A stretch of DNA of 64,000 nucleotides from positions 1 through 64,000 of the forward strand of contig NZ_JAGSOI010000002.1 in assembly GCF_023684405.1 (NCBI RefSeq). Direction: 5' to 3'. Below the pieces are notes generated by a model. That model worked only from the letters and a program-made list of their open reading frames with translations. It was not told the origin of the DNA and made no database searches. A program made the position numbers and the translations under genes. Positions 5,246 through 21,947 of the stretch are shown one piece after another; position 1 is the first letter of the stretch, and the number at the start of each line of letters is the position of its first letter. The DNA is from Methanococcoides seepicolus. GTDB lineage: Archaea > Halobacteriota > Methanosarcinia > Methanosarcinales > Methanosarcinaceae.

Positions 5246-5845
5246 TTATTTGACAAATGTGCGTATTTTCTCAATCAGTTGGTGAACCAATGTTGAAGGA
5301 TTACTATCACGGCTTATGATGTCAACACCACTACTCTCATGCAGTGATACTACTTCTTCTGAATACTTCATTGCAATATCAATACGATCTTTAGTCTTTT
5401 CATATATTTGAGAATCATTCTTTTGATATTGTCCTAAAAATTGTACTAATTTTCTTTTTAGCAACTTATTATCAAGTGGTCTTTCATAACGCTCAAAATG
5501 AGAAAGAATCCAGAATTCAAAACATGGATTAGAAAATATTATTTGGATATCTTCAGCAGATGCGAGTTTTTTTGCTTGACTAAGTTCTTTAGAAGAATTC
5601 TCATCCCGATCAAAAACACAGAATATCAAATCTCCTGGCACATAGTCTCTGCTATGCTTTAAAACGTCTAATGCATATTTTATAACACTAAGAGCATCCT
5701 GATCATCCGATGATTTTACCTTAATTTTTAATTTATTAATTCTCAAATCCGATCTCATATGCTCAAAATAATGAATCTCAGTCTTTTCCCCTTCACAAAA
5801 GATCCACATCTGAGTAATTGATCTTGTACCTTCCCTTCTTACCAT
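5246..5845 (-). CDS. RloB-like TOPRIM-fold protein (AbiL partner)
   Basis: 199 residues. The N-terminus has the RloB signature CEGEKTEIHYF (17-27), then FCVFDRDEN (76-83, the acidic DxD pair) and the block SNPCFEFWILSHFE (~105-118). These are the conserved residues of the RloB family, a TOPRIM-like nuclease fold in anti-phage and type I R-M associated loci. It lies 19 bases after the stop of an ATPase of the RloA family, the arrangement called AbiL (AbiLi ATPase plus AbiLii/RloB). The expected role is effector of an abortive-infection response gated by the ATPase. Base composition is clearly more AT-rich than the surrounding housekeeping genes, suggesting transfer. Confidence 0.8.
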   Translation of the reverse strand: MVRREGTRSITQMWIFCEGEKTEIHYFEHMRSDLRINKLKIKVKSSDDQDALSVIKYALDVLKHSRDYVPGDLIFCVFDRDENSSKELSQAKKLASAEDIQIIFSNPCFEFWILSHFERYERPLDNKLLKRKLVQFLGQYQKNDSQIYEKTKDRIDIAMKYSEEVVSLHESSGVDIISRDSNPSTLVHQLIEKIRTFVK

Positions 5846-5864
5846 AGTACAGCCTCTTTAATGC

Positions 5865-7121
5865 TTATTCATACAATGTTTCATCAATGAAGGGGACGCC
5901 ACCAACTCTGCCATTAAGATAAGCTCTTTCAAAATCAATATCTTGCCGGATATCGTAATCGAGAAGTGAACTTAGTGTAGTAAAACTATTCTGCTCTTTG
6001 GAACAAAAATAGATTTGATCCTTTCTAAAAAGTTCATTGTCAAGCAAAGTAGTATCATGAGTTGTAAAAATCAATTGCCCGTTTTTGTTATTTTTGCTAT
6101 TAAAAAGCTTCACGATCATACGAGTAATTTCTGGATGAAGACTTGAGCCTAATTCATCTATGAAAAGCACTTTGTCCTTTTCCATTATGTCTAACAACGG
6201 ACCTAAAATAGAGAGGGTTTTTCTTGTGCCTTCAGATTCATCAATCAAATCAAAATAAACGATTTTACCATCATCTGATCGATGCATTGTCTTAACTTTA
6301 TATACATCCTCCATATCATCGGTGCTTTCAAAATTAGAATTTTCATTTGAAAATCCGAAAGTGACTTTTTTGATAGGAATTTTTTGGACATTGACTAAAA
6401 AGTTTTCGATACCGCCAAAATCAGCTTTCTTCAAAATATCAAGTACCTTTTTTTTGAATTGAGAATCTTCTTTTATTTTAGTAATTGTATAATCCATCCA
6501 GTTATTAGAAGAATCTCCATGAGTTAAATTCATGTTAACAATTATATTTTTTGAAATATACTCAAATATATGTTTTGTTTTATAATAACCTAATTGGGTC
6601 GCACGTGAAAGATAAAGAGTATTATCAATAGTTTGAGATGGATACAATTTTTGTTTTTCGGCATCAATGCCAAAATTGAAACTTTTTGTATTAGTCCTTG
6701 AAAATACAAGTTTTTCTTTTTTCTTTGATATTTCAAACAAATACTCTTCAAACACTTTTGTTGAATTGCAGGAAAAACCATATCTATAAGTCTTACCGCT
6801 ACAAGTAAAGATTAATTCAAACTTACTTGGTTTTTTATTTGAAGCTTCGCTTAACTTAAATGGAGTTACGATTGGAATTTTGGAATTTACATTAAAAGTA
6901 TGGGAATTCTTGACCATACTTTTCATAAAACTAATTGCTTTCATTAAATTAGACTTGCCCGCAGAATTTCCACCATATATCAATGCTGATTTTAAAAGGT
7001 GATTTCCATCATCTAAATTAATTAGATTTTGAGATATTTTTTTGCTTGAACTGGAGTCCATGTTCAAAGTAACTCTGTCTTTAAAAGATAGAAAATTTTC
7101 AACCGAAAATTCTAGTATCAT
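5865..7121 (-). CDS. RloA-like AAA ATPase (COG1106, AbiL ATPase)
   Basis: 418 residues from the ATG at 7121, where the family N-terminus MILEFSVENFLSF begins; the frame is open to 7193, and an ATG at 7181 has a GGTGG just upstream, so a longer form (442 or 438 residues) cannot be excluded. Walker A is GGNSAGKSN (50-58), Walker B is KVLFIDELGSSLHPE, and the switch is FTTHDTTLLD, as in ABC/SMC-like ATPases of defence systems. It should sense infection and control the RloB-like protein encoded directly downstream. AT-rich coding sequence, with no housekeeping neighbour in the same transcript. Confidence 0.8.
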   Translation of the reverse strand: MILEFSVENFLSFKDRVTLNMDSSSSKKISQNLINLDDGNHLLKSALIYGGNSAGKSNLMKAISFMKSMVKNSHTFNVNSKIPIVTPFKLSEASNKKPSKFELIFTCSGKTYRYGFSCNSTKVFEEYLFEISKKKEKLVFSRTNTKSFNFGIDAEKQKLYPSQTIDNTLYLSRATQLGYYKTKHIFEYISKNIIVNMNLTHGDSSNNWMDYTITKIKEDSQFKKKVLDILKKADFGGIENFLVNVQKIPIKKVTFGFSNENSNFESTDDMEDVYKVKTMHRSDDGKIVYFDLIDESEGTRKTLSILGPLLDIMEKDKVLFIDELGSSLHPEITRMIVKLFNSKNNKNGQLIFTTHDTTLLDNELFRKDQIYFCSKEQNSFTTLSSLLDYDIRQDIDFERAYLNGRVGGVPFIDETLYE

Positions 7122-7193
7122 ATTACATGCTATGATAGAAGGAGTAGATAAAGATAACCAATAAATACACATATATCTCATTTTTACCACCAT

Positions 7194-16694: not shown

Positions 16695-18035
16695 TTATAA
16701 CCATCCATTGAGGAAGCTTCTAAACCCATCCTCTTTCAGTTCAAGGACCTGCTCACCTTCGAGAATTTCAAAGCCAGCCTTTACACTTTTGGAGATGTGC
16801 TTTCCAAGGGAACAGTTTGCAAGTTCTTTTTCAAGAAGCTCTCTTGCAGAGGTATGTTTTCGTGGAATTTCAGCCACATAGAAACCGTCCTTGATTGTAA
16901 ATGAGTAAGCATCCTCATTGTCAACGTATTTGTCCCTGAACTTCTCGGCATGATCACGTACCCATACCGGAGGACCTCTGTGCATTTTGACATTAGGCAA
17001 AGTGCCTGACATAAGTTCCAGCATCACAACAGAATCCTCGCCACTCCATTTTCCAGCCTTGAGTACGGTAAATTCGTTCTTATCGAGCATTGGGACCACC
17101 GAGTTCTCCATTTTAGCGAACTGTGGATAGAATATATCATCAACCACATCCGGTGTCTTGAAGACGATGGCCAGCAGTGTTGAACCTTTCTTTTCCAGCC
17201 GTTCAACGATCTCAATGTCAGATATTGGTGGTATCAAGGATGAGAAGAACAGGCTTTCGTCCGGACTGCCAAGGAAACTGCGAGCCACATCAACAAATGT
17301 GCAGAACTTGTCCAGAGAGAGTGCAGCCGCCACATTCCTTTTCGGGTCAGTAGGGTCTATGACTACCAGAGGGTCCTCGAACTTCAGTTTCCCGTGTTCC
17401 AGAATATCGAGAAGCAGACCGGGCCTCCAATTAGATGCTGCTTCCAGTACCTTTTCGAATGAGCCGTAATTGATTACCAGAAGCTCGGTCAGATAGCCTG
17501 AAAATCCTTCGGTCTTAAGCTCTGAACCGTAAACTCCAGTCCCTCTCATGAACTGCTTGAGAAGCAGAACATCGTCCTCAAGCCCGTTCAGATTGGCCTT
17601 GATGAACTCGTTGTGGAAAGGTGTCCTGTCAACTGCTGAGATAATAGAACTTGCACTGGAAACACCATAGCACGGAACCAGATCGACATCGAATCCCTTG
17701 TATCGCATCTTCACGTAAGGATGTTCAGCATAATGCTCATCCCAATGTTCCGCCTCCTTTGCCACCTGCCTGCCAACTGACAGACCATAGCTTTCAAGGT
17801 CTTCACGGCTGGTATCATCTGGAAATGTGATGAATATGTCAAGGTCATGCGTGCCGGATATCCACGTACCCCTGGCAGCGGAACCTACAAGCTGTGTTTG
17901 TACATCCGTCAGGCCAACCTTGAATGTAAGGCAATCGATCTTGTACATCAGCTCATCGGCCACTTTGGTCAGGTGTTCCCTTTCCTTTTCAGTTGGCTTT
18001 ATCTTTTCCAGAATGCTTTTTTTGAGGGATTCCAT
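16695..18035 (-). CDS. cca: CCA-adding tRNA nucleotidyltransferase (archaeal class I)
   Basis: 446 residues from ATG at 18035 (MESLKKSILEKIKPTEKERE) with GAGAG upstream; the frame is open 30 codons further but those residues are atypical. The catalytic motif LVGSAARGTWISGTHDLDIFITFP contains the GS and DxD pair (D about 60 and 62), and DVDLVPCYGV holds the third carboxylate. It adds or repairs the CCA 3' end of tRNAs without a nucleic acid template. Single gene, convergent with the glycosylase. Confidence 0.93.
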   Translation of the reverse strand: MESLKKSILEKIKPTEKEREHLTKVADELMYKIDCLTFKVGLTDVQTQLVGSAARGTWISGTHDLDIFITFPDDTSREDLESYGLSVGRQVAKEAEHWDEHYAEHPYVKMRYKGFDVDLVPCYGVSSASSIISAVDRTPFHNEFIKANLNGLEDDVLLLKQFMRGTGVYGSELKTEGFSGYLTELLVINYGSFEKVLEAASNWRPGLLLDILEHGKLKFEDPLVVIDPTDPKRNVAAALSLDKFCTFVDVARSFLGSPDESLFFSSLIPPISDIEIVERLEKKGSTLLAIVFKTPDVVDDIFYPQFAKMENSVVPMLDKNEFTVLKAGKWSGEDSVVMLELMSGTLPNVKMHRGPPVWVRDHAEKFRDKYVDNEDAYSFTIKDGFYVAEIPRKHTSARELLEKELANCSLGKHISKSVKAGFEILEGEQVLELKEDGFRSFLNGWL

Positions 18036-18424
18036 GTTAATTCTCTCGATAATCGTGTTCTTAGGGGTACTATCGTTCAAAGGTATAAACCATTTGAGAT
18101 TGAAGATGGTTTTTGGAAATATCAAAGTACTTTTTCATTAATATTAAGAGAAAGAGGCATGACAAATAGGACTTATTCTTCTAAAAGATGTAGTGACTCA
18201 GTTGAGCTTATAGATGAGGATTTCTACAAAGACTAACAAAGTTAGATTTGTATGCAATTAATTTTTTTAGAATCGTGTATACTATATACAATAAACATAT
18301 ACTTATGTAAAAAAGTAGGCATACTCATAAAGTCTTAGAGTATAGTATTGCTCAAATACTGTGATTAATTCTGTATAAGTATAACTAGAATTTGTGCTCT
18401 TATTTTTGGCGAAATGTGATAAAA
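18036..18424. other. AT-rich spacer with left direct repeat of the ATPase-Dam module
   Basis: 389 bases. It contains a short plus-strand frame (18159-18236) whose end encodes SVELIDEDFYKD and which includes the left 31-bp repeat (18201-18231). From 18240 to 18420 it is strongly AT-rich and probably holds the promoter of the ATPase gene. No other gene is seen. Confidence 0.5.
18201..18231 (+). repeat. Left copy of a 31-bp imperfect direct repeat
   Basis: gttgagcttatagatgagga plus 11 further bases; 27 of 31 positions match 21188-21218 in the same orientation. Both copies fall in a reading frame encoding VE-I-D-(D/E)-x-F-(Y/H)-K, so the repeat could come from the 3' end of a gene. The two copies bracket the AT-rich ATPase and Dam genes. 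Confidence 0.5.
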
Positions 18425-19969
18425 ATGAAAATTAATAAAATATCAATTAAGCAATTTAGAGGTTTTAATGATGTTGAATTTCATTTAGGAAGTAGATTGA
18501 CAGTTATAGCAGGGCAGAATGGAACTCAGAAAACTACTTTATTAGGAATGCTAAGTCAACCGTTTTCAATTCCAGATAAAGAGCATCCTTTATCTGGGGA
18601 AAAGCCACTTTGTGGTGGAAGGTTTAAATCTGGTTTTGCTGAGAAATTCAAATTGTCTGCTACTTTTGATAAACCTAAAAAACACGAATGGACTTTATAT
18701 TTTGATCAAGATGATTTTCCAGAATACACAGTTGAAAGTATACGGAGGAGTAAAGCGCCAGGAGATATTCGTTTTTGGAAAAAGGGTGATAGGTCGAAAG
18801 GCTCTGGTTATGTCCAAAAGCCAGTCATTTATTTGAGTTTATCTAGACTTTTTCCAATTGGTGAGGATAGTAATCTTGATTCAAGTAATGATATTGAACT
18901 AACTGAAGAAGAATTCAAATTTTATGAGGAATGGCACAATAAAATCCTTATAATTCCAGATGTCAAAATTGAAAGTGCAAATTATCTTGCAAGCCACCAA
19001 AAAAATACGCTTGGGGCAAACACATCTTTTTATGACTGGAAAATGAATTCAGCTGGACAAGATAATATTGGCAAAATATTGTTGGCAATACTTTCTTTTA
19101 AACGTCTAATGGGCAGGGAGGGTTATGCTGGGGGTATACTTGCAATTGATGAATTAGATGCCACTCTATATCCAGCATCACAACTTAAATTGTTGGCAGC
19201 ATTAAGAAAATTTGCTTCAAAGTACGATATACAAATACTTTTCACAACTCATTCACTTCCGATTCTTGAAGAGGCTTGCAAACTGAATTCAGATGAAAAG
19301 ATTTCAGGACAAATTAATGTCGTATATCTTGAAAAAAGAGATAATAATATAATTCCAATTGAGAATTTACAATTTGAATCAATTAATAATAGGCTTCATG
19401 TAATTGCTGGAAAAGCTACTAAGAAATCGAAAATAACTGTTTACTGTGAGGATGACGAAGCTCGTATCTTTTTAAAGTCATTACTAAAAAATAAAAGAAA
19501 CAAAAAATTGAATTATGTAGATGTAACATTTGGGTGTGAGAATTTAAAAGAACTTGCAAGAAAAAAAGTACCATGTTTCAGTTATCCACAATCATTGATT
19601 ATTCTTGATGGTGATGCATCTCTTAAGGGTGTTAAAGCAAAAAATATATTACGTTTGCCTGGTAGTGAATCGCCAGAAAGACTTCTTGCTAAATACCTTT
19701 TTAATCTTAGTGATTCTGATAATTTTTGGGCAGAAATCGGTAGTGATTATACAAAACAGTTTGTTTTCAAAGATATTAGTTATAATGACATTTCTGATAG
19801 GGAAAAAGCAAAACAGTGGTATGGGATGCAAAAAAGTTATTGGGGTAGAAATAGTGCAAAATTGATTAATAAATGGATGGAAGACAACCAAGAAGTAGAA
19901 TCTTTTTTGAATGAGTTTGATGAAACCTTATTGAGATACGAACATGAGTTAGGCATAGTTCTTGGCTAA
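18425..19969 (+). CDS. OLD-like ATPase with C-terminal TOPRIM domain
   Basis: 514 residues from ATG 18425 (MKINKISIKQFRGFNDVEF); the frame opens 11 codons earlier. Walker A is unusual, GQNGTQKTT (30-38), with Gln in place of the usual Gly before Lys; Walker B is GGILAIDELDATLYP and the switch histidine lies in FTTHSLPILEEA. The C-terminal third has TOPRIM-type acids: ITVYCEDDEARIFLKSLL (~335) and LIILDGDAS (~390). This is the architecture of OLD-family nucleases and of fused PARIS-type proteins. The AT-rich gene lies 196 bases upstream of a Dam-type methyltransferase and is flanked by direct repeats, pointing to a transferred defence module. Confidence 0.75.
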   Translation: MKINKISIKQFRGFNDVEFHLGSRLTVIAGQNGTQKTTLLGMLSQPFSIPDKEHPLSGEKPLCGGRFKSGFAEKFKLSATFDKPKKHEWTLYFDQDDFPEYTVESIRRSKAPGDIRFWKKGDRSKGSGYVQKPVIYLSLSRLFPIGEDSNLDSSNDIELTEEEFKFYEEWHNKILIIPDVKIESANYLASHQKNTLGANTSFYDWKMNSAGQDNIGKILLAILSFKRLMGREGYAGGILAIDELDATLYPASQLKLLAALRKFASKYDIQILFTTHSLPILEEACKLNSDEKISGQINVVYLEKRDNNIIPIENLQFESINNRLHVIAGKATKKSKITVYCEDDEARIFLKSLLKNKRNKKLNYVDVTFGCENLKELARKKVPCFSYPQSLIILDGDASLKGVKAKNILRLPGSESPERLLAKYLFNLSDSDNFWAEIGSDYTKQFVFKDISYNDISDREKAKQWYGMQKSYWGRNSAKLINKWMEDNQEVESFLNEFDETLLRYEHELGIVLG

Positions 19970-20165
19970 TCTAAAATAAATTAAGAAGTCTAATTTAATA
20001 TAATGGCAGACAATATTAATGAAAATAGGAACTGCTTCAAATTGCCTATTCAAAAACTGTTTATCAAATCATAGCATAATGTACATGAACAAACACGGAA
20101 CAGATTATGACAGTATTATACATTGTGGATTTTATTTTTTTAAAAACTTGTGGAGTAGATGAACT

Positions 20166-21038
20166 GTGAGTAGATTTTGTTCTCCTTTGAGATATCCTGG
20201 TGGAAAAAATCGTATTTTCAAGTTTGTTTCAAATCTATTTTACGAAAATGAGATGATAGGGGATAGTTACGCAGAACCATATGCTGGTGGAGCAGGTTTA
20301 GCATTGAAATTGTTATTTGAAGGCTATGTCAATCATATTTATATCAATGATTTTGATTATTCAATCTATTCTTTTTGGAAAGCTATTATTGAGCAAACTG
20401 ATCGTTTCTGTTCTTGGATTGAAAATTGTGATGTTTCTCTGGAAACATGGCATGATTGTAAGGAAATTCAAAAGAATGGGTCTGATGACTATTTTGATTT
20501 AGCGACATCAACATTTTTCCTTAATCGCACTAATATATCTGGAATTATTAAAGGTGGAGTTATTGGGGGGGTAGCACAGAAAGGAAAATATAAAATTGAT
20601 GCTAGATTCAACAAGAATGATCTAATATCGCGCATCAAAAAAATATCTGATTATCATTCACAAATTAGTATTTCTAATCTTGATGGCATTGATTTTTTAG
20701 AGAAATTTAAGGCAAATGCACAAGATACTTTTATCTATCTCGATCCGCCCTACTATAATAAAGGTGCAGATTTATATATGAACTTCTTTCAAGAAAATGA
20801 TCATGCTACATTAAGTGAATATGTGAAAAAGCTGAATAACAAATGGATGATTTCTTATGACTATCAGGATTGCATAATCCGATTGTACGAAAATCAAAAA
20901 TGTTTAAGTTATACTCTTTCACAAAATACTTCTAATAAAATGGGAACTGAACTTTTATTTTTTTCAGATGAGGTCAAATTTGAGGAATCAACTGTATTTT
21001 TGCGAGAACCAATTTTACTGAACAATTCAGTTGATTAA
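20166..21038 (+). CDS. Dam-type DNA adenine-N6 methyltransferase
   Basis: 290 residues from GTG with TGGAGTAG upstream. Begins with the Dam family N-terminus CSPLRYPGGKNRI (target for AdoMet motif X), has motif I AEPYAGGAGLALKL (36-49), DxF motif IYINDFDYSI, and catalytic motif IV DPPYY (193-197). It transfers a methyl group to N6 of adenine in DNA; the recognition site cannot be read from sequence, though the family often modifies GATC-like sites. The neighbouring OLD-like nuclease suggests that methylation marks self DNA. AT-rich like its partner. Confidence 0.85.
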   Translation: MSRFCSPLRYPGGKNRIFKFVSNLFYENEMIGDSYAEPYAGGAGLALKLLFEGYVNHIYINDFDYSIYSFWKAIIEQTDRFCSWIENCDVSLETWHDCKEIQKNGSDDYFDLATSTFFLNRTNISGIIKGGVIGGVAQKGKYKIDARFNKNDLISRIKKISDYHSQISISNLDGIDFLEKFKANAQDTFIYLDPPYYNKGADLYMNFFQENDHATLSEYVKKLNNKWMISYDYQDCIIRLYENQKCLSYTLSQNTSNKMGTELLFFSDEVKFEESTVFLREPILLNNSVD

Positions 21039-21112
21039 TGTTGTTATATTTGTCTGAGCTTTTTTAGGCAAGCTATTCCCATATAGCAACTAATCAAAAA
21101 GTGTATCTCTAG

Positions 21113-21232
21113 CCCAATCCTGCCATTCCAAACGTAAAAAACTTGCACGCAGATATTGTTCAAAGGACAATAGTTGAAGAATACCCGGTTGAGATTATAG
21201 ATGATAATTTCCACAAAGCCAAAGATACATAA
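21113..21232 (+). pseudogene. Orphan 3' coding fragment
   Basis: 39 sense codons end in TAA and read NPAIPNVKNLHADIVQRT then IVEEYPVEIIDDNFHKAKDT. It is preceded in frame by TAG at 21110-21112, with 14 further open codons before that. It has no start codon or ribosome site and looks like the end of a gene whose body was lost or replaced. Its last part overlaps the right 31-bp repeat. Family not recognised. Confidence 0.35.
21188..21218 (+). repeat. Right copy of the 31-bp imperfect direct repeat
   Basis: gttgagattatagatgataa plus 11 further bases; matches 18201-18231 at 27 of 31 positions, same orientation, 2987 bases apart. With the left copy it frames the ATPase-TOPRIM and Dam genes. Confidence 0.5.
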
Positions 21233-21416
21233 ATATTGTATCAAATTAAAGTCGTTGCAAAACAGATAACCATTTATACAGATGATAACTAATATTCTAC
21301 TGTTAGCCACAAAGCTAAAAACAACTACCCACAGGCTTTTTGGGGAATTTACCACATTGATTGTGGAGCCTGTTTATCGGATAGTAATTCAATTTCTATA
21401 AAAAGGAGTAAATCAC

Positions 21417-21947
21417 ATGATCAGTGAAAGAATGGTTAAAGCATTGAATGGTCAGATCAACAAGGAGATGTATTCCGCTCATCTTTACATGGCAATGTCA
21501 GCCTACAGTTCAAACATCGGGCTTAGCGGATTTGCCAACTGGTTCATGGTACAGTATCAGGAAGAGATGTTGCATGCCATGAAATTTTACAACTACATTG
21601 TTGATCAGGGAGCAAAGGTAGAACTTCAGGCAATTGACAAGCCGGCACAGGAATTCGGCACCACCCTTGACATGCTCAATGCTACCCTTGAACACGAGAA
21701 GTTCATCACCCGTTCCATCAATGACCTGGTAGACCTTGCCATTGAAGAAAAGGACCATGCAACCAACATCTTCCTCCAGTGGTATATTACCGAACAGATA
21801 GAAGAGGAAGGCAATGATAATGAGATCATTGACAAACTTAAACTTGCAGGCGAGGAAGGAAACGGGCTTTTCATGATCGACAAGGACCTTGCAGCAAGAG
21901 TGTTCAATCCACCTGCCGGAGTAGCGAACTGGACACAGATCAGGTGA
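21417..21947 (+). CDS. ftn: Ferritin
   Basis: 176 residues of the classical bacterial/archaeal ferritin type. The four-helix bundle carries the ferroxidase ligands: Glu17 in NKEMYSAHLYM, EEMLHAMKF (E50, H53), and the helix with EKDHATNIFLQWYITEQIEEE. It stores iron as ferric mineral and protects against oxidative damage. A strong AAAAGGAG ribosome site precedes the start. The next gene follows after 6 bases and is likely co-transcribed. Confidence 0.92.
   Translation: MISERMVKALNGQINKEMYSAHLYMAMSAYSSNIGLSGFANWFMVQYQEEMLHAMKFYNYIVDQGAKVELQAIDKPAQEFGTTLDMLNATLEHEKFITRSINDLVDLAIEEKDHATNIFLQWYITEQIEEEGNDNEIIDKLKLAGEEGNGLFMIDKDLAARVFNPPAGVANWTQIR

Follow-up and report, generated by a model that had tools for sequence, protein, structure and literature searches.

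OLD nucleases belong to several major anti-phage systems. Five genetic classes have been described, none with a known methylase partner. Class 1, with P2 Old and the OLD protein of Thermus scotoductus, is defined by single isolated genes; P2 Old works alone, and defence by this class is known in the P2-lambda case only (PMC10568477). Class 2 is Gabija (GajA and the UvrD/PcrA/Rep-like helicase GajB), class 3 comprises the retrons of the Eco8 / I-B type, and class 4 is PARIS, with ATPase and TOPRIM split (AriA/AriB). Class 5 is Cran1 of the Sulfolobales, an OLD protein of archaea that is essential and acts in the cell cycle (PMC12796447). A further point of reference is PD-lambda-5, a system from an E. 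coli prophage consisting of PD-Lambda-5_A and PD-Lambda-5_B, which protects E. coli against most phages tested and was described as a compacted RM+Abi system (Vassallo et al. 2022; PMC9519451).

In contrast to the described classes, the archaeal OLD gene analyzed here has a methylase partner. The window, i.e. the whole stretch of 64,000 nucleotides that was analyzed (contig NZ_JAGSOI010000002.1 of Methanococcoides seepicolus, GCF_023684405.1), contains an OLD-type nuclease gene and a Dam-type methylase gene as a two-gene cassette between a CCA-adding-enzyme gene and a ferritin-like gene.

The two genes and their nearest relatives

Both genes lie on the forward strand: P0001 (514 aa) at 18425..19969 and P0002 (290 aa) at 20166..21038, separated according to the ORF list by exactly 196 nt, as the preliminary description had it. 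The homologues of P0001 begin at the ATG at 18425, and its longest ORF opens at an upstream TTG (18392); P0002 starts with GTG.

P0001 has the architecture of the OLD family, an N-terminal ABC-type ATPase fused to a C-terminal TOPRIM domain with the E and DxD residues. It matches the profiles AAA_15/AAA_21 and, over its full length, phrog_3940 (1e-111); the best PADLOC model is ATPase-Toprim_I-B (2.8e-22). The Walker A motif GQNGTQKT occupies residues 30-37, Walker B is formed by D242-E243, and the TOPRIM residues are E342 and D395-x-D397, with a conserved K463; in the alignment, D242, E243, E342, D395 and D397 are invariant across 53 homologues. For the AF2 model (pLDDT 92.7), the best fold match in the PDB is Thermus OLD (6p74), followed by Septu PtuA, GajA and retron-Eco8, and the Gabija entries 8x5i and 8sm3 are also among the best. 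The three metal-A residues of Ts OLD (E377/D431/D433; PMC7049728) correspond to positions that are invariant in 53/53 members of the P0001 family. Judged by sequence and structural model, P0001 is an OLD-family enzyme with predicted nuclease activity, and the OLD-like TOPRIM identity proposed earlier is borne out by both the top fold match and the invariant TOPRIM residues.

P0001 shares the ATPase-TOPRIM architecture with Gabija, but a methylase gene and no GajB-like helicase gene adjoins it. With class 3 it has the ATPase-Toprim_I-B match and the Eco8 fold match in common; no reverse transcriptase ORF, which retron type I-B would have beside the OLD gene together with an ncRNA, is found among the neighbouring ORFs. 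PARIS has ATPase and TOPRIM in two neighbouring genes or belongs to the AriAB fusion family; here both domains reside in a single ORF, and matches to the AriA/AriAB models are weak. Membership in Gabija, retrons, PARIS and Septu was rejected on account of weak model scores and missing partners. PDC-M38, a PADLOC candidate, has a model that picks up the ATPase as well as the ParB-like gene; no model of its partner occurs among the PADLOC matches of the methylase.

P0002 is a D12-class adenine-N6 DNA methyltransferase by its profile (MethyltransfD12, 1.4e-19) and is present as a single copy in its genome. Its motifs AEPYAGGAG and DPPY are intact and invariant in the alignment. The match to the PADLOC model PD-Lambda-5_B (PDLC04018) has an E value of 1.6e-112. 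The preliminary description overlooked that the second protein of PD-lambda-5, an anti-phage system validated by experiment, is of this methylase family. The archaeal pair thus shares the methylase family with PD-lambda-5, but instead of the ParB-like partner PD-Lambda-5_A it has an OLD nuclease. The combination of a D12 methylase with a putative nuclease recalls type II restriction-modification, in which the cognate methylase blocks a site-specific endonuclease; here, in contrast, the partner is an OLD ATPase-TOPRIM protein.

Compared with their counterparts in an archaeon of another genus (G105), the OLD gene and the methylase gene have dN/dS values of 0.20 and 0.12, respectively, which indicate purifying selection on both genes between the two genera. 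The intergenic stretch (19970..20165) is 72% identical to that of G105 over 160 aligned positions, as against 52-55% at synonymous sites. It is probably the methylase's own regulatory region, although this comparison is suggestive only. In the Bacteroidota relatives L006-L008, a PD-Lambda-5_A-like gene sits where the archaeal genomes have this gap.

Insertion site and flanking repeats

The cassette is part of an inserted block of 3154 bp (18108..21261) at the site between the CCA-adding enzyme and ferritin genes. In three congeners (L039, L040, L041) the flanks are 92-94% identical and contiguous, and only 32-36 nt replace the block, so that the insertion postulated in the preliminary description has its empty site in relatives. 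The AT-rich character of the module noted there holds as well, with 29-35% GC inside and 45-50% in the flanking genes. One congener has cas3-cas4-cas1 at the same site.

The 31-bp direct repeat that frames the genes is real: 27/31 bases are equal between 18201-18231 and 21188-21218, within a 52-nt match at 75%. Its origin is different from the similar coding tails assumed at first. The left copy (18163..18240) belongs to a segment of about 63-70 bp that is dispersed through the genus (E down to 2.6e-18); the same genome contains further copies, and one congener has 19 matches. This segment forms the ends of a DDE-type insertion sequence of about 1 kb, where inverted pairs flank the transposase (e.g. 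L047:2309-3308, transposase of 323 aa). The left copy is a decayed end of this genus-wide element and the right copy (21183..21234) a solo end, both in the same orientation. A reading of the left copy as a transposase coding tail was also considered; the 54-aa translation gave nothing informative, and it was the search at the DNA level that explained the repeat. The insert extends about 60 nt past the left copy and about 40 nt past the right, and both copies are missing from the empty sites. Repeat-mediated exchange as the mode of insertion is therefore not supported and was rejected: the repeats are remnants of insertion sequence ends, and the borders defined by the empty sites lie outside them.

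Among phage records, the block has DNA-level kin only in Vibrio phage ValB1MD-2, over 161 nt, and no donor emerged from this search. The insertion, the low GC content and the rarity of the pair within the phylum (2/393 genomes) fit a mobile defence module.

Linkage of the genes and exchange of partners

Linkage was assessed by searching viral contigs, a sample biased towards prophages, with the ATPase alone. The methylase adjoins the ATPase gene in 65 of the 74 scorable loci, directly downstream on the same strand in 60, usually at a spacing of less than 100 nt, and this among highly diverged ATPases (about 30% identity). All loci devoid of a Dam gene fall into one clade. The distance matrices of the two proteins are correlated (Mantel r = 0.35, 0/2000 permutations as high; rank rho = 0.14), if only modestly. 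The recurrent pairing suspected from the single locus is thus found in the relatives, and neither of the two observations that the preliminary description had named as speaking against it was made: the methylase is not regularly absent beside homologues of the ATPase, and the distributions of the two genes are not unrelated. With class 1, P0001 shares the 6p74 fold match, the ABC ATPase with C-terminal TOPRIM, the metal-A residues and the prophage habitat; yet that class consists of isolated genes, whereas a methylase gene is adjacent both in our locus and in the large majority of scorable relatives.

Dozens of bacterial prophages carry the pair as well, most of these loci consisting of OLD and methylase with no further gene of the system, and in archaea and Bacteroidota it persists where no prophage is recognisable. 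A pair of the phage phiNP type is present in 85 out of 5426 complete E. coli genomes (about 1.6%). In the records examined, its genes carry only the annotations 'AAA family ATPase' and 'DNA adenine methylase', and an integrase lies beside the pair in both E. coli loci opened (n=2). In agreement with the preliminary description, no name for the pair was found in the openly accessible journal literature that was searched; nor did this literature yield an activity, methylation or phage phenotype for any such pair. These data suggest that the OLD and methylase pair is a widespread, apparently unnamed anti-virus system.

The methylase family changes partners, a feature that had also been overlooked. 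Across 80 loci, the partner is PD-Lambda-5_A (ParB-like) in 52, OLD in 16, both in others and HerA-NurA in two. The methylase tree implies at least 14 changes of partner label, six of which are forced by well-supported branches. Of the two components, the methylase seems to stay constant while the effector varies, and a single methylase whose nuclease-type partners can be exchanged fits a role as self mark. In six relatives (L003, L006-L008, L096, L100), the genes for PD-Lambda-5_A, PD-Lambda-5_B and OLD occur together. Since, in the tree, the archaeal pair is nested together with loci from Bacteroidota that hold all three genes, it probably descends from a form with OLD, PD-Lambda-5_A-like and methylase genes, of which the middle one was lost. 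A search with the A-like protein of L006, run with no positive control, found no such gene in the locus, in the rest of the genome or in G105.

Function of the pair

We lean slightly towards the view that the locus is a mobile anti-virus module of bacterial or prophage origin, acquired by the archaeon, in which an OLD effector is combined with a methylase whose methylation serves as self mark. The analysis shows the identity and catalytic residues of the genes, their conserved linkage, the purifying selection, the insertion history and the exchange of methylase partners, whereas DNA as substrate, methylation as self mark, the antiviral role and an outcome of either direct immunity or abortive infection are inferred. 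Since the sample of viral contigs is biased to prophages, the term defence rests on analogy. In the most likely mechanism, which would resemble restriction-modification, the methylase would mark the resident genome at its own target sequence, and the OLD dimer, gated by the ABC ATPase, would bind DNA. The two-metal TOPRIM centre would then nick or degrade unmarked DNA, or DNA that a virus is invading or replicating, so that methylation would restrain or direct the nuclease. Three observations stand against this model: the archaeal pair lacks the PD-Lambda-5_A component present in its closest relatives, the distances of the two genes correlate only modestly, and one ATPase clade lives without any methylase, which implies that an OLD effector, like that of class 1, can act without a guard.

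An unlikely alternative, though one to be taken seriously, is abortive infection with the methylase as antidote. The methylase or its methylation state would keep OLD silent until a phage blocks this enzyme or disturbs the DNA; the freed OLD would damage host DNA or RNA and the cell would die, as in PARIS with tRNA. Methylation would be a tether rather than a sequence-specific restriction signal. OLD relatives in PARIS and retrons do act abortively (PMC10568477, PMC12839542), the RM+Abi description of PD-lambda-5 (Vassallo et al., PMC9519451) points the same way, and in most loci the methylase gene immediately follows that of OLD. The clade without methylase, however, speaks against a default toxicity of OLD, at least in that branch.

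The frequency of Dam-type methylases in phages (90 phage records) and the autonomy of P2 Old (PMC10568477) would also agree with two independent cargo genes that merely travel together, the methylase serving the mobile element in anti-restriction or regulation and OLD acting as a stand-alone class 1 effector. We consider this quite improbable, given the close adjacency maintained across diverged ATPases, the pairing of the methylase family with other effectors and the retention of the pair outside recognisable prophages. Still less probable is a degenerate remnant, i.e. a three-gene system broken by loss of PD-Lambda-5_A and deprived of its function. The four nearest non-archaeal relatives, among which the archaeal pair nests, all carry an A-like gene that is not found elsewhere in the archaeal genome; but neither ORF is truncated, the catalytic motifs are intact, the low dN/dS values come from two genera that both lack A, and OLD and methylase stand alone in most prophage loci. 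A housekeeping role like that of the cell-cycle nickase Cran1, likewise an archaeal OLD protein but an essential one, is largely refuted and almost certainly wrong, since a sporadic insertion with a methylase that is missing at this site from three congeners and so rare in the phylum cannot be a core gene.

Returning to the preferred model of a self-marking methylase, we hypothesize, at about even confidence, that OLD nucleases with an adjacent PD-lambda-5_B-type methylase form a sixth genetic class, in which methylation gates OLD. The methylase would be the hub for swapped OLD, PD-Lambda-5_A and HerA-NurA partners within an extended family of compact defences, carried by prophages and similar to restriction-modification, that would also have entered archaea. 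The partner exchange also helps to explain PD-lambda-5. The occurrence of the phiNP-type pair in E. coli makes the idea directly testable in standard laboratory strains, and the conserved methylase partner would give an OLD enzyme a concrete self/non-self signal that can be tested.

The ATPase and methylase genes

The pair lies in a block of low GC content (29-35%) between a gene for a CCA-adding enzyme on the left (16695-18125, minus strand) and one for a ferritin-like protein on the right (21417-21947, plus strand), both named from reading the sequence. Its gene content marks the genome as archaeal. The ATPase gene (18425-19969) and the methylase gene (20166-21038) are intact open reading frames on the plus strand. 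The 196 nt that separate them (19970-20165) are 72% identical, over 160 aligned positions, to the counterpart in G105, a genome of another archaeal genus of the same family, versus 52-55% at synonymous sites. This conservation is suggestive of a promoter or other control of the methylase's own, in which case modification could precede restriction; the spacer is also a possible regulatory element or small RNA.

The window ATPase matches Pfam AAA_15/AAA_21, and PHROG family 3940 (function not assigned) spans it end to end (1e-111). An AlphaFold2 model built on 53 sequences, i.e. the window protein and its viral and genomic homologs, has a mean pLDDT of 92.7. The top solved structure is the OLD nuclease of Thermus scotoductus (6p74, E 2.4e-13); Septu PtuA, Gabija GajA and retron-Eco8 rank next. 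TM-scores for the whole chain reach only 0.3-0.4, which is usual when domains can move; hence the OLD fold assignment leans on the E-value, the domain order and the residues. The ligands of metal A in OLD enzymes are E377, D431 and D433 (Ts numbering; PMC7049728). The TOPRIM pattern of the window protein consists of E342-D343 and D395-G-D397; E342, D343, D395, D397 and the Walker B residues D242-E243 do not vary among the 53 aligned sequences, Walker A reads GQNGTQKT, and the nearly invariant K463 is a candidate for the catalytic lysine/arginine position. In agreement with the preliminary description, which proposed an OLD-like ATPase-TOPRIM protein, the gene product is a member of the OLD nuclease family according to model and alignment.

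The methylase is of the D12 adenine class (Pfam, 1.4e-19), with intact AEPYAGGAG and DPPY motifs, and its best PADLOC model is PD-Lambda-5_B (1.6e-112). Because Mrr attacks foreign-methylated DNA, the need for an mrr-less host would agree with an active PD-lambda-5 methylase. This E. coli prophage system, studied in a host without the mrr region, cut plating or plaque size of all phages tested but one (PMC9519451).

The window also contains a second defence-type pair (5246-7193, minus strand), composed of an AAA ATPase matching AbiLi (1.8e-88) and an RloB-like protein (AbiLii, 1.8e-23; Pfam RloB, 4e-38), and a fragment of an IS66-type transposase at its left edge (33-551; Pfam DDE_Tnp_IS66, 3.6e-15).

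Linkage and exchange of partners

Scanning viral contigs with the ATPase alignment only yielded 80 loci, six of which stop at the gene. Among the 74 scorable loci, the methylase is adjacent in 65 (in 60 it comes next downstream, in the same orientation), 2 kb away in one and absent in eight; after clustering at 80%, it is adjacent in 37 of 41. The co-occurrence to be expected of a two-gene system is thus found. Loci without a methylase form one supported clade, placed just after a phage repressor gene. Members of this clade at L105:4097-6659, L160:4152-6656 and L171:4152-6654 have an N-terminal extension and directly follow a phage CI-type repressor gene.

Vibrio phage ValB1MD-2 is an annotated example of the pair; in Streptococcus phage GBSInt4 the order is ATPase-methylase-integrase, and in Citrobacter phage phiNP the methylase frame is present though unannotated. 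The phiNP-type pair occurs in 85 of 5426 complete E. coli genomes; in the two loci opened (JJ1886, Ec-RL2-1X), it is located beside a phage integrase, near gab genes. ATPase and methylase distances correlate across the 41 paired loci (r = 0.35, with none of 2000 permutations as high), but the rank correlation is only 0.14, which indicates conserved linkage with reassortment.

The reverse scan, with the methylase alignment only, again gave 80 loci. The adjacent partner is PD-Lambda-5_A (ParB-like) in 52, the OLD ATPase in 16 and both in two; A is farther off in four, neither partner is present in five, and one locus meets the contig end. HerA-type genes occur in two of the five loci with neither partner, a NurA-type gene being shown for one, and they constitute a third partner type of this methylase family. 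At these loci (L206:4962-9284, L209:5055-9230), genes for a HerA-like helicase and a protein of 460-485 aa come after the methylase; the latter protein was tested for the NurA domain in L206, where a Schlafen/AlbA_2 gene lies upstream. On the methylase tree, a quick search with SH-aLRT support only, the OLD label changes at least 14 times, six of them forced by well-supported branches. Thus, nuclease-type partners of several kinds share a single methylase family.

OLD, A and methylase genes occur together in ValB1MD-2, in the loci L096, L100, L110 and L169, and in three Bacteroidota genomes, whose A-like gene lies between the other two (L006:6566-7801, L007:3206-4453, L008:6581-7828). By the label-assignment rule, L100 was counted as OLD-only in both trees, and L110 and L169 likewise in the ATPase tree; all three fall outside the supported clade containing the window protein.

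Origin and insertion of the archaeal pair

The G105 ATPase is 74% identical to the window protein, and the two gene pairs share 80% DNA identity in different flanks. In the ATPase tree, both proteins nest with four three-gene loci (support 100/99), and the closest relatives outside archaea belong to Bacteroidota (61-62% identity). No A-like gene was found in the window genome or G105 by a search without positive control; the simplest reading is a loss in the archaeal line. The family is rare (two of 393 genomes of the phylum). Comparison of the two genera shows purifying selection on both genes (dN/dS 0.20 for the ATPase, 0.12 for the methylase), so the two-gene form is maintained.

The empty site sought in relatives exists: in three congeners, 32-36 nt replace window 18108-21261 between flanks 92-94% identical. 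The 31-bp direct repeat noted earlier is real (27/31 bases) but belongs to a sequence of ~63-70 bp dispersed through the genus, copies of which, inverted relative to each other, flank a ~1-kb element that encodes a 323-aa DDE-type transposase. Both window copies are such ends; they point the same way and lie within the borders of the insert, which does not support insertion by repeat-mediated exchange. IS-assisted acquisition of the block is possible. The element that gave rise to the repeat is represented by L047:2309-3308, and has 19 matches in the congener G091, many of them truncated or solo ends. Insertions may be frequent next to the gene for the CCA-adding enzyme, as at a hot spot. There, G091 carries cas3, cas4 and cas1 (L042:433-4170), and another congener a NosD-like beta-helix protein (L043:4456-5901).

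Proposed function and relation to known OLD classes

In the best-supported reading, the methylase would mark self DNA, and the ATP-gated OLD nuclease would attack unmarked DNA or DNA undergoing invasion. A rival reading assigns the two proteins an antidote or abortive logic; we favor self-marking mainly because the effectors exchange around a constant methylase. OLD classes are distinguished by gene context: the gene stands alone in class 1, class 2 is Gabija, class 3 the retron type, class 4 PARIS and class 5 Cran1 (PMC10568477, PMC12796447). Unlike the lone gene of class 1, the window OLD gene adjoins a methylase. No description of a methylase-linked class was found in the literature searched, and as subscription papers and preprints lay outside that search, an earlier one may exist. 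The parts are already known; what is new is the combination of OLD and methylase and the exchange of partners.
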